DNA of 64,000 bases from Parvularculaceae bacterium. GTDB taxonomy: Bacteria; Pseudomonadota; Alphaproteobacteria; Caulobacterales; Parvularculaceae. The number at the start of each line of letters is the position of its first letter. The first letter of the stretch is position 1. Under the pieces are notes generated by a model, which worked only from the letters and a program-made list of their open reading frames with translations, had not been told where the DNA came from and did no database searches. Below, in pieces: positions 47,165 to 58,604 of the stretch. The position numbers and the translations under genes were made by a program. The stretch lies in assembly GCA_021776475.1 (NCBI GenBank), contig JAJFFV010000005.1:372001-436000 (forward strand), read 5' to 3'.

Positions 47165-47173
47165 ATCTCTCTT

Positions 47174-47207
47174 GCCATCCCGGATGCCGCGCGGCATCCG
47201 GGATGGC
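47174..47207. repeat. 34-bp perfect palindrome (possible bidirectional terminator)
   Basis: GCCATCCCGGATGCCGC (47174-47190) is followed directly by its exact reverse complement (47191-47207), with no spacer. It lies between the convergent DUF885 and methyltransferase genes. The CATCCCGGAT core is common in intergenic palindromic repeats of alphaproteobacteria. It may act as a terminator for both genes, but T-runs are weak. Confidence 0.75.
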
Positions 47208-47217
47208 ATTTCTATTT

Positions 47218-55700: not shown

Positions 55701-56003
55701 GAGATTAAAACCGAGCTGCATGAGATCGTAGAACTTTTGAGCGGCAACCAGGCCATGAACGAAGTCGGCCAGGACACACCAGCGAATGTACAAAATCGTC
55801 TCGGCAAGGTGATGATCGGGACCGGCAACTCTACTTACGGCCCAACGCCGACACATCTGCGAACTCTTGGTTTTGCGGAAGCCGATTTCGAGGAGGTTCG
55901 AACGCGGATTAATACGCTGCAGCAAACAACCATACCGGCGTTTGAGGCGTCGCTGATTAGCGCTGGCGCCCCGTGGACACCGGGTGGACTGATCCCGGGG
56001 TAG
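52737..56003 (+). CDS. Large BNR/sortilin-like beta-propeller lipoprotein
   Basis: A 1088-residue exported protein with lipobox LSAC. BNR/Asp-box repeats (SNAGTTW, SDNAGTSWKKL, TDGGATWD, SEDGGETWV, SPDRGASWEKV, SEDGGKTWRG, SDGGENWRRV, STNRGRSWTSI) build one or two beta-propellers of VPS10/sortilin type over about residues 30-760. A beta-sandwich region follows (LSVRDKDGNVVRRISGPTKKGFHRVAWDLRFP in parts), then a helical tail. Such proteins are common in Bacteroidetes and some alphaproteobacteria and are annotated as glycosyl hydrolases without proof. Its 3' end overlaps the convergent TauE-like gene by 47 bp. Confidence 0.85.
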   Translation: MKPLHIIAALLMASLSACAQAQDEQGPMSADTFKGFELRNIGPAFMAGRIADIAIVPDDPATWYVAVGSGGVWKTSNAGTTWTPIFDEQTSYSIGALALDPSNLNTLWVGTGENVGGRHTGFGDGIYRSDNAGTSWKKLGLENSDHISKIIVHPEDANTVWVAAQGPLWSKGGDRGLFKTTDGGATWDNVLSAGEWTGVTDVVIDPRDPDRLYAATWQHHRTVAAYVGGGPESGLHLSEDGGETWVALSNGLPDGNMGKIGLAISTLRPDIVYAAIELDRRKGGVWRSPDRGASWEKVSDAVGGGTGPHYYTELYASPHKFDRLYLVSNTTQVSEDGGKTWRGINNEYKHVDDHAIAFRPDDPDYIVVGSDGGLYESYDNEKSWRFIDNLPVTQFYKVAVDDTEPFYLVYGGTQDNNSQGGPSRTDNRHGIRNSDWFITLFADGHQSAVEPGNPDIMYAEWQEGNLVRVDRTTEEIVHIQPQPGKDDPTERFNWDAPIYVSAHDPKRIYFASYRLWRSDNRGDEWRALSGDLTRNEDRMLLPVMERQWSWDSGWDFLAMSQYNTITSIGESPIDENILYVGTDDGIIQITSDGGENWRRVEVGKLPGVPATAFVNDIRADLYDADTVYVALDNHKYGDYKPYLLKSTNRGRSWTSIAGDLPERHLVWRVVQDHVDKDLMFTATEFGLFFTVDGGGKWIELTGGSPTISFRDVTIQRREEDVVAATFGRGFFILDDYAPLRDVDAKQLEKEALLFPGRRAWWYMEGHPLAFSEGGAQGHGYYRAPNPPFGAVFTYYLSDDIKSLAATRQEAEKDKLKNWEDTPFAGFDAAEEERREVEPEIWLSVRDKDGNVVRRISGPTKKGFHRVAWDLRFPAVDAVGSGPDYPNEDVQGFLAAPGTYTVSLSKRVRGETIELVGPQSFEVERMREGALPGAEPAAVVGFWDRLAKLQRGVTAASQSTGHLEKKVQDLKIALGRSRAAPSNLDDQWLEIKTELHEIVELLSGNQAMNEVGQDTPANVQNRLGKVMIGTGNSTYGPTPTHLRTLGFAEADFEEVRTRINTLQQTTIPAFEASLISAGAPWTPGGLIPG

Positions 56004-56823
56004 TAAAGCGGGCTGAATGTTGCGGTGAATCTGCTTTTGCCAGCGAGGACGCTGCATCCCAGCCAACATAAACGGCCACGATCAGGATCATTGCCGCAAA
56101 GGCCATACGTGCCAGGCCTATCCGCATCGCAAGAACCCGTGCGACAAAGATGCCAATGACACCACCGACGGCGCCGCCGATAAGAAGGAGCGCTGTCAGA
56201 CGTATGTCAACGAATCCGGAAAGGGCGTAATTCGCCGAGGTCGCTGCGCCGAAGATCGCCACCGAGACGAGCGAGGACGCGGTCGCATTGGCGATCGTCA
56301 TGCCGGCCGCCAGCATCAGACCGGGCACAATCAAAAAACCGCCACCGATCCCGAAGAATCCAGCCGCCAGGCCAGCGGCCAGACCAATAGGTATAATGCG
56401 GATCATGATAGTCCGGGTAATACGCACATCGGGGTCCCCCATGCTGACAGGCTTTCTAAACATGGACAGAGCGATCAGTGCCATGACGAGCGCAAAAGCA
56501 AGCAATAGCCAGCTACCCGGAATTACTTTTGCTAAACTTGACCCGATGATCGATCCCAGCAGACCGGCACCTGCAAATAGGGAGGCGCAGGGCCATTTGA
56601 CCCTGCCGCCTTGCCAATGACCCAAGAGACTAACCAGGGCTATTGCCGCAACAGCGGCAGCGGAAGTTCCAATCGCCGTGTGTGGATCAGGTATGCCGAC
56701 AACATACAATAGCAACGGCGCCGCTAATACCGAGCCGCCGCCACCAAAAGTACCAAGAAAAATGCCCACGATCATGCCACTGGCGAGCGCGGCGACAATC
56801 ACCTGCGATGTAATTTCCAGCAT
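55957..56823 (-). CDS. TauE/SafE family sulfite exporter-like protein
   Basis: A 288-residue protein with about eight helices, GTFGGGGSVLAAPLLLYVVG and GFFGIGGGFLIVPGLMLAAG as the two family repeats. TauE/SafE proteins export sulfite or organosulfonates. Downstream of a rhodanese and a BigR-like repressor it probably removes sulfite formed from persulfides. ATG at 56823 is the likely start, 2 bp after the rhodanese stop; an open extension into that gene is not favoured. Confidence 0.9.
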   Translation of the reverse strand: MLEITSQVIVAALASGMIVGIFLGTFGGGGSVLAAPLLLYVVGIPDPHTAIGTSAAAVAAIALVSLLGHWQGGRVKWPCASLFAGAGLLGSIIGSSLAKVIPGSWLLLAFALVMALIALSMFRKPVSMGDPDVRITRTIMIRIIPIGLAAGLAAGFFGIGGGFLIVPGLMLAAGMTIANATASSLVSVAIFGAATSANYALSGFVDIRLTALLLIGGAVGGVIGIFVARVLAMRIGLARMAFAAMILIVAVYVGWDAASSLAKADSPQHSARFTTPGSVHPVSTGRQR

Positions 56824-56825
56824 TG

Positions 56826-57359
56826 CTAGTGAGCAGCCGGGCGGCGATTCCAGGGCGCCATAGCCAGAATATGAGCCATCCCGCACCAGCCGCTGATACC
56901 CGCGAAGATTAACCCAGCCCCCACGATAGCAGACACGGCAGCGAAACCGGGATGAAGCGCCACGCTTGCCACAATACCGGACAGGATCAATGCGCCGGCC
57001 GTTATTTGAACCTGCCGGTTAATTTCTATGGGAACAGATGTGTTTATGGTTGTCGGCAAGCCCGTTTGTTTCCAAGCCTCAAGACCGCCATCCAGCACAA
57101 ACGCCTCACCATCAACATGAGCAGCCAGGCGGGCACAATTTGCGTCGGTACGCATGCCGGAGCGGCAATGGAAGACCGCATGCGCTCCCGCGTCAATCGT
57201 CAATTCGCCTTTGTCGAGTGCAGAAAGCGGGAAGGATACCGAGCCAGTGATATGCTCGCGGACATATTCATCACGTTCACGTATGTCGATCAACACCGCG
57301 TCCCCTTCTCTAAGTTTTTTTGCAATCGTTTTCGGATCTAGTTTTGTAAGTGTTGTCAT
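56826..57359 (-). CDS. Rhodanese with membrane domain
   Basis: A 177-residue sulfurtransferase. The rhodanese domain (about 1-105) has the active-site loop HCRSGMR with its Cys, and VLIDIRERDEYVREHI. The C-terminal 70 residues hold two helices (ITAGALILSGIVASVALH and VSAIVGAGLIFAGISGWCGM), a DUF2892-type tail. ATG at 57359 overlaps the repressor stop by four bases. It handles sulfane sulfur in the module. Confidence 0.92.
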   Translation of the reverse strand: MTTLTKLDPKTIAKKLREGDAVLIDIRERDEYVREHITGSVSFPLSALDKGELTIDAGAHAVFHCRSGMRTDANCARLAAHVDGEAFVLDGGLEAWKQTGLPTTINTSVPIEINRQVQITAGALILSGIVASVALHPGFAAVSAIVGAGLIFAGISGWCGMAHILAMAPWNRRPAAH

Positions 57360-57679
57360 GTCAGCATCTCCGGACAATAAATTGATATAAGCGCCTCAAT
57401 CACACGAACTGCCGCAGGATCTGCAATGCGGTAGAAGATGGTTTGGCCGTCACGGCGCGTCGTCACCAAACCTTCTTCACGCAACACCGCAAGATGTTGT
57501 GACAGGGCAGATTGAGATAGATCAAAATCAGATCCGAGCGCACTGACCGATCTCTCAGCGGCGCCAAGCCGGCACAAGATCATGAGCCGCCGCTCATTCG
57601 ACATGGCGCGTAATACTGTCGCCGCCTTTGTGGCTTTGTTTTCGAAAACGGCAGCGTCAAATGGCTCTGCATTGATCAT
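57356..57679 (-). CDS. bigR: BigR/SqrR-like persulfide-sensing ArsR repressor
   Basis: A 107-residue winged-helix protein with SQSALSQHLAVLREEGLVTTRRDG as DNA-binding part (in parts). C36 (LMILCRL) and C102 (SIYCPE) are 66 residues apart, as the redox pair of SqrR and BigR, which form a tetrasulfide bridge with persulfide and release DNA. It is the first gene of the rhodanese-TauE operon and is divergent from the dioxygenase gene, sharing a palindromic control region. Confidence 0.92.
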   Translation of the reverse strand: MINAEPFDAAVFENKATKAATVLRAMSNERRLMILCRLGAAERSVSALGSDFDLSQSALSQHLAVLREEGLVTTRRDGQTIFYRIADPAAVRVIEALISIYCPEMLT

Positions 57680-57685
57680 ATTTTA

Positions 57686-57726
57686 TATATATTAGGTATT
57701 GCTAATTTAGCAAGTCCTAATATATA
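57686..57726. promoter_or_regulatory. 41-bp concentric palindrome, BigR-type operator
   Basis: Outer arms TATATATTAGG (57686-57696) and CCTAATATATA (57716-57726) are perfect inverted repeats. A second perfect palindrome TTGCTAA-T-TTAGCAA (57699-57713) lies inside and shares the same centre, 57706. Only two base pairs of the 41-bp element break symmetry. It sits between the divergent repressor and dioxygenase genes and is likely bound by the repressor to control both. Confidence 0.85.
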
Positions 57727-57746
57727 AACCAACCAGGAGGCCCAGC

Positions 57747-58604
57747 ATGGTTCAGATTCAGACATTTTTTGATACTTCCACCGCGACATTTTCGTATCTC
57801 GTCTCGGACCTGAAAAGCCGAAAAGCGGCGATTATAGACCCGGTCCTTGATTACGATGCTAATGCAGGCGCGGTCAGTTCGACCTCGGCTGATGCCTTGC
57901 TGAGTGCGGCAAGCAACGAAGATCTCGAAATTGCCTTTGTGCTTGAAACCCATGCCCATGCCGATCACTTGTCCGCCGGCGATTATATTAGAAAAAAAAC
58001 CGGTGCAAAAATTGGCATCGGCTCGGGCATCACCAAAGTACAGGAAACCTTTAGCCCGCTTTTCAACGCCGGAGACGTTGTACCCGACGGCCGGGCATTT
58101 GATCGGCTATTCCAAGATGGTGACAGATTTGACCTCGGGGCGTCAACCGTCCGTGTAATGCACACTCCCGGGCATACGCCCGCCTGTGTTACATATATCA
58201 TAACTGACGCCGCTTTTGTCGGTGACACGATCTTTATGCCCGATTACGGCACGGCACGAACCGATTTTCCCGGCGGCAATGCGACAACTTTGTACCGTTC
58301 TATCCGGCGGCTACTGAAGTTGCCGCCCGCAACACGCATTTTTGTCGGCCATGATTACCCGCCCGCAGGCCGCGACCACCCGGCGTCGGAAACAACGGTT
58401 GCTGATCAGTGCACCAGTAACATTCACATCCACGATGGCGTGACTGAGACCGACTATGTCGTCCAGCGCGAAGCGCGTGATAGAACGCTGGCAACGCCAA
58501 GGCTGATTGTGCCAGCTTTGCAGGTGAACATCCGTGCTGGTGCCTTGCCACCAGCGGAAAATGACGGACATGTTTATCTAAAGGTACCGATTAACCGCCT
58601 TTAA
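57747..58604 (+). CDS. blh: ETHE1-like persulfide dioxygenase (Blh)
   Basis: A 285-residue metallo-beta-lactamase-fold protein. The iron-binding H69-x-H71-x-D73-H74 (ETHAHADHLSAG), MHTPGHTPACVTY, FVGDTIFMPDYGTARTDFPGG and VGHDYPP are those of sulfur dioxygenases that oxidise glutathione persulfide to sulfite. It is divergent from the BigR-like operon, the arrangement of bigR-blh loci in Rhizobium, Agrobacterium and Xylella. A good AGGAGG precedes the ATG. Confidence 0.93.
   Translation: MVQIQTFFDTSTATFSYLVSDLKSRKAAIIDPVLDYDANAGAVSSTSADALLSAASNEDLEIAFVLETHAHADHLSAGDYIRKKTGAKIGIGSGITKVQETFSPLFNAGDVVPDGRAFDRLFQDGDRFDLGASTVRVMHTPGHTPACVTYIITDAAFVGDTIFMPDYGTARTDFPGGNATTLYRSIRRLLKLPPATRIFVGHDYPPAGRDHPASETTVADQCTSNIHIHDGVTETDYVVQREARDRTLATPRLIVPALQVNIRAGALPPAENDGHVYLKVPINRL

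Follow-up and report, generated by a model that had tools for sequence, protein, structure and literature searches.

How would a repressor read a palindrome of 41 bp that lies between its own gene and a divergently transcribed sulfur gene? The element at positions 57686-57726 of the window (the whole 64-kb stretch of DNA analysed here) reads TATATATTAGG TA TTGCTAA T TTAGCAA GT CCTAATATATA, or, in an alternative writing, TATATATTAGGTATTGCTAA-T-TTAGCAAGTCCTAATATATA. About its centre, base 57706, 18 of 20 positions pair, forming outer arms of 11 bp and an inner palindrome of 15 bp, the pairing being interrupted at ±8 and ±9. The original prediction had described these nested palindromes, which matched exactly on re-checking, and had assigned them to a divergent persulfide module, which is indeed where they lie, flanked on one side by a BigR-like gene and on the other by a persulfide dioxygenase gene that diverges from it. 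Its reading of the nested form as a cooperative switch is revised here: the element appears to be a functional-looking two-dimer operator merged with a pair of divergent promoters.

A palindrome beyond chance in a divergent sulfur locus

The 41-bp palindrome exists beyond chance and is strongly conserved. Two places in the 64-kb window have at least 18 of 20 pairs, centred on 57706 and 47190, and none of 200 dinucleotide shuffles of the window reached that number (14 reached at least 16). Shuffling the 92-bp intergenic stretch, or the 54-bp AT-rich site alone, 20,000 times each likewise never produced 18 pairs or more. The other 18/20 palindrome (47170-47210; ATGCCATCCCGGATGCCGCGCGGCATCCGGGATGGCAT) is GC-rich and resembles a strong terminator-type stem. 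For the 41-bp palindrome, an RNA hairpin or terminator was rejected, as its arms are AT-rich and it lies upstream of both predicted transcription starts.

The reverse strand at 57359-57679 encodes a 107-aa ArsR repressor of the BigR/SqrR/HlyU kind, whose closest solved relatives (PDB) are HlyU, SqrR, NolR, BigR and YgaV. Its score of 90.3 bits against the BigR equivalog model NF040642 was the best of all NCBIfam models, yet fell below the cut-off of 155 bits, and for this reason we call it BigR-like. It possesses the winged helix (PF01022) and the cysteines at α2 and the C-terminal α5 (Cys36 and Cys102) of dithiol ArsR sensors; both cysteines align with those of SqrR and HlyU and are kept in essentially all homologues examined. 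Behind it on the same strand are a rhodanese gene with a YgaP-like transmembrane domain (56826-57359; PF00581, PF11127), whose ATG overlaps the bigR stop codon (ATGA), and a TauE/SafE sulfite exporter gene (55957-56823; PF01925), which probably starts at an internal ATG. The forward strand at 57747-58604 encodes a 285-aa persulfide dioxygenase of the ETHE1/Blh dioxygenase-domain type (PF00753), which matched positions 143-423 of the Blh model NF040641 with 376 bits, below the cut-off of 625, the sulfurtransferase part being absent. The gene content of a bigR operon, with dioxygenase, rhodanese and TauE/SafE beside the repressor, was found here and in 50 relatives in a divergent arrangement: the dioxygenase gene diverged from bigR in 50 of 50, and rhodanese and TauE genes lay behind bigR in nearly all. 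At gammaproteobacterial-type loci L098, L101, L112, L079 and L083, which have the same kind of operator, the divergent gene seemed, on visual inspection of the sequence, to encode a sulfide:quinone-oxidoreductase-like flavoprotein in place of the dioxygenase.

Conservation and the repressor unit

We gathered 6 loci from the genus, 62 from the family and 80 from public genomes, which yielded 50 distinct alpha-type operators alignable on the centre; the relatives compared are phylogenetically non-independent. Bases -19 to -11, -7 to +7 and +11 to +19 were conserved, mostly at 1-2 bits, with weak or no conservation at ±8 to ±10 and +13, an intermediate value at -13, and nearly nothing conserved beyond ±20 except the bigR start codon. 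With bigR on the right, the consensus of the 50 was tATATATTAG-nnc-TTGCTAA-W-TTAGcaa-nnn-CTnATATAT-n7-ATG, a conserved block of 40 bp in which the 3-bp spacers between the arm sets are variable. Both broken pairs of the window palindrome fall within this poorly constrained spacer (±8 to ±10). As both arm sets are conserved in the 50 relatives, rather than a single one, the original prediction held in this respect. The outer half-sites are weaker than the inner ones (+13 is unconserved), and one dimer site may perhaps be occupied weakly.

One outer half-arm and the adjacent inner half-arm together form the unit W-TTAG-N6-CTAA-W, which has the size of one ArsR dimer site. The window contains two: predicted dimer site 1 at 57691-57706 (A-TTAG-GTATTG-CTAA-T), which fits the NolR consensus in both directions, and predicted dimer site 2 at 57706-57721 (T-TTAG-CAAGTC-CTAA-T), which also fits it and is conserved by column in the 50 relatives. 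They share base 57706 and their centres are 15 bp apart. A scan over every combination of intra-unit spacer (4-9) and junction (0-8), in which a match had at most 3 mismatches in 16, gave a single main peak at N6 and junction 1, the setting of both sites, with 67 of 119 loci compared to 0.2 in shuffles; the runner-up setting held 10 loci. Under strict best scoring, 71 loci had junction 1 (15 bp) and 6 had junction 2 (16 bp), the latter mostly Xanthomonadales-type plus E. coli ygaV, and of 21 perfect or near-perfect unit pairs, 19 had a distance of 15 bp. Judged by sequence (spacing scan and unit-distance counts), the element has the two adjacent dimer sites at fixed spacing expected of a two-dimer operator.

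The unit pair also persists where the common centre is lost. More distant relatives, including E. coli ygaV, have it at 15 or 16 bp without an overall palindrome, and in plasmid-borne relatives (Rhodobacterales, Sphingomonadales, Hyphomicrobiales, Rhodospirillales) the pair is mostly present and the global palindrome mostly absent; some of these have one clear unit only, the second being degenerate, and two (L132 and L139) have neither pair nor global palindrome. A paralogous locus in the same genome (L002, at G000:C5:1719901) has three TTAG/TAAG-N6-CTAA units at 15-bp steps. Its repressor is 60-62% identical to the one studied here, and the array (1837-1877 and flanks, in G000:C5:1719901-1720260) adjoins a LuxR-type regulator gene, not sulfur genes. 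Much of the concentric look arises because palindromic units placed in tandem necessarily form a larger palindrome around the point where they meet, and the 41 bp are better described as two side-by-side dimer sites than as concentric units. Thus the originally proposed symmetric operator retains its room for two dimers and its two conserved arm sets; what is lost is the nested form as a functional arrangement, since the conserved unit is TTAG-N6-CTAA placed side by side at 15 bp, and nested or concentric units were rejected because relatives keep the pair without them.

Recognition helix and half-site change together. Every listed recognition helix at loci with the CTAAWTTAG core reads SQSALSQHL, whereas same-family loci with ATTC-N8-GAAT have RQAT(V/I)SQHL, with identical half-site spacing. 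In a whole-genome search the exact half-operator was found at no site other than 57686-57726, and genome-wide matches with one mismatch were no commoner than in a reversed control. The repressor therefore looks local, and a wider regulon was unsupported. In same-family genomes, loci L021-L034, of a related ArsR subclade, carry a single ATTCG-N6-CGAAT palindrome over the aligned start of their own gene, which is a natural single-dimer counterpart.

Putative interlocked promoters and translation starts

We infer that two interlocked, outward-facing promoters overlie the unit pair. The predicted dioxygenase promoter (57699-57726, forward strand) comprises a -35-like TTGCTA at 57699-57704 and a -10-like TATAT(A) at 57721-57726, with TTG and TATAT conserved; the predicted bigR promoter interlocks with it on the reverse strand (57686-57713), with TTGCTA at 57713-57708 and TATAT(A) at 57691-57686. 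With each -35 lying beyond the centre and each -10 in an outer arm, the whole 41 bp would be palindromic, and its mirror symmetry is best explained by two such promoters laid over the unit pair. The TTG of the bigR promoter (-7 to -5) is invariant in the 50 loci and TATAT is near-invariant. The mirror CAA stands at +5 in 32 of the 50 loci and has slid by 2-3 bp, to +7 or +8, in 15, which come mostly from one clade; a T-to-A change at -13 accompanies it in 12 of the 15 slid loci compared to 2 of the 32 unslid ones, and TTAG is fixed throughout. Such sliding is the behaviour that would be expected of a -35 element holding its distance to the -10. At L012, TTGACT lies 17 bp before TATATA. A strict σ70 consensus scan called neither promoter of the window, as the -10 has no final T and the -35 only 4 of 6 matches, and we hold the promoter part of the model less firmly than the operator part on this account.

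Relative to the centre, 49 of 50 loci place the bigR start codon at +27 or +28 (27 bp in the window), 7-8 nt past the TATAT block; a Shine-Dalgarno motif precedes it in 3 of 50 and is absent in the window. Since the start is fixed at this distance without a Shine-Dalgarno, the bigR mRNA is predicted to be leaderless, beginning at its ATG. On the dioxygenase side the position of the start ranges between -39 and -61 from the centre, with a Shine-Dalgarno in 48 of 50 loci at variable distance from the palindrome (AGGAGG at 57735-57740 on the forward strand of the window).

Proposed mechanism and alternative readings

In all likelihood, the 41 bp are a double operator for the neighbouring BigR/SqrR/HlyU-type repressor, overlaid by two interlocked outward promoters, at which both gene sets would be silenced. 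Two dimers would bind side by side on (A/T)TTAG-N6-CTAA(A/T) sites that share the central base; with dyads 15 bp (~1.4 helical turns) apart they would lie on nearly opposite faces of the helix and so need not clash, and they may bind cooperatively. As each promoter would have its -35 (TTGCTA) across the centre and its -10 (TATAT) in an outer arm, reduced repressor on both sites would cover both, so that the dioxygenase gene and the repressor's own operon (bigR-rhodanese-tauE) fall silent at once. A per- or polysulfide link between Cys36 and Cys102 would then release the repressor, giving a bigR mRNA that starts at its ATG and a dioxygenase mRNA whose leader carries the Shine-Dalgarno. The DNA itself shows the units with their spacing and conservation, the promoter-like elements, the gene order and the cysteines of this scheme; the binding, two-dimer occupancy and transcription starts are what they would imply, and repression and persulfide release are proposed on the model of established work with SqrR, BigR, YgaV and HlyU.

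Could one dimer centred on 57706 suffice, with its recognition helices on TTGC and GCAA, its wings on the outer arms, and the outer arms conserved only as -10 elements? The inner 15 bp are the most conserved part, TTGC and GCAA are 11 bp apart, a possible major-groove spacing, and the outer arms do double as promoter elements. However, 18 of 50 loci have lost the CAA of GCAA or show it displaced, with TTAG still in place, and at L098, L128 and L138 two TTAG-N6-CTAA units are present although the TTGC/GCAA pair is missing. SqrR-like relatives, moreover, carry single palindromes sized as one unit. A single dimer on the inner core is further disfavoured by HlyU, which did not bind oligo O3, where CTAAATTAG is intact and the left half is missing (PMC4330345), and we regard this reading as unlikely. 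Less probable still is the nested switch of the original prediction, in which the inner palindrome would hold one dimer and the outer arms another dimer or a tetramer. Two conserved arm sets with one common centre in 50 loci would suit it, but across the centre ~25 bp separate the outer TTAG from the outer CTAA, more than one ArsR dimer could span, conservation tracks the side-by-side unit also in loci without concentric symmetry, and no arms are paired concentrically in the paralogue's array of three units.

It might also be argued that the symmetry stems from the two interlocked promoters only and that the repressor acts elsewhere, given that TTG and TATAT recur in mirror image with hardly any variation and that the Shine-Dalgarno motifs and starts fit. 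Yet the TTAG/CTAA bases, which a promoter does not need, are conserved, go with a particular recognition helix, match the geometry of NolR and SqrR, and persist where promoter elements differ; we give this reading the least credence of all. Beyond the double operator at this locus, it is conceivable, if still doubtful, that cooperative binding of dimers side by side is general among BigR/HlyU-type repressors, on TTAG-N6-CTAA arrays phased at 15-16 bp (two units as a rule, three in the paralogue), and that in the divergent version the 41 bp also accommodate two promoters that exclude each other, the repressor mRNA being leaderless. If so, the persulfide switch would be sharper than a single-dimer operator allows. 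The double operator of this locus already provides an exact, testable operator code (unit, spacing, junction and matching recognition helix) for a widespread family of sulfur sensors, for which the literature searched goes no further than an AT-rich palindrome or consensus sequences for single sites. It also illustrates how one 41-bp stretch can encode an operator plus two interlocked promoters, with a leaderless repressor mRNA as a prediction.

Comparison with known systems

The BigR box of Xylella and Agrobacterium is a palindromic AT-rich element. Like the locus described here, the Xylella/Agrobacterium system has an ArsR dithiol persulfide sensor (PMC5823870), adjoining dioxygenase, sulfurtransferase and exporter functions, and an AT-rich palindromic operator. 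Unlike it, the window has dioxygenase and repressor genes diverging from interlocked promoters, a dioxygenase without the sulfurtransferase part of Blh, and an operator that resolves into two dimer units. Searches of the literature on the BigR box, ArsR two-dimer operators and TATATTAG returned no description of the double site. The NolR operator consensus, (A/T)TTAG-N9-A(T/A) (PMC12445080), fits both halves of the 41 bp and of nearly every aligned alpha site, though in the window two sites abut with one base in common; NolR itself is without cysteines (PMC8960804). The SqrR operator consensus is ATTC-N8-GAAT (PMC9774250), and the window has ATTA-N8-TAAT, with equal spacing and different bases.

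In E. coli, the footprint of YgaV also covers the promoter (PMC9774250), as the predicted repressor site does in the window, but at ygaV the distance between units is 16 bp, not 15, and they form no global palindrome. Upstream of ygaV (L127) there are two TTAG-N6-CTTA units, at -37 and -21 relative to the ATG. They are close to the start site and footprint published for YgaV, in a region that its authors annotated with a site resembling ATTC-N8-GAAT. Vibrio cholerae HlyU (PMC4330345) has the same recognition helix, SQSALSQHLA, and a CTAAATTAG core with a TTAA-N6-CTAA unit; unlike the window repressor it activates from far upstream, and its 17-bp palindrome was drawn about another centre, the authors' dyad lying ~2.5 bp from the one proposed here. 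Loss of DNA binding on per- or polysulfide treatment has been published for relatives such as HlyU. Hyphomicrobium SoxR at soxXA-soxYZ, which has other target genes, is likewise a sulfane-sulfur-responsive ArsR repressor acting in a divergent intergenic region, where a pair of shifted bands was taken to mean two binding sites (PMC10451225).
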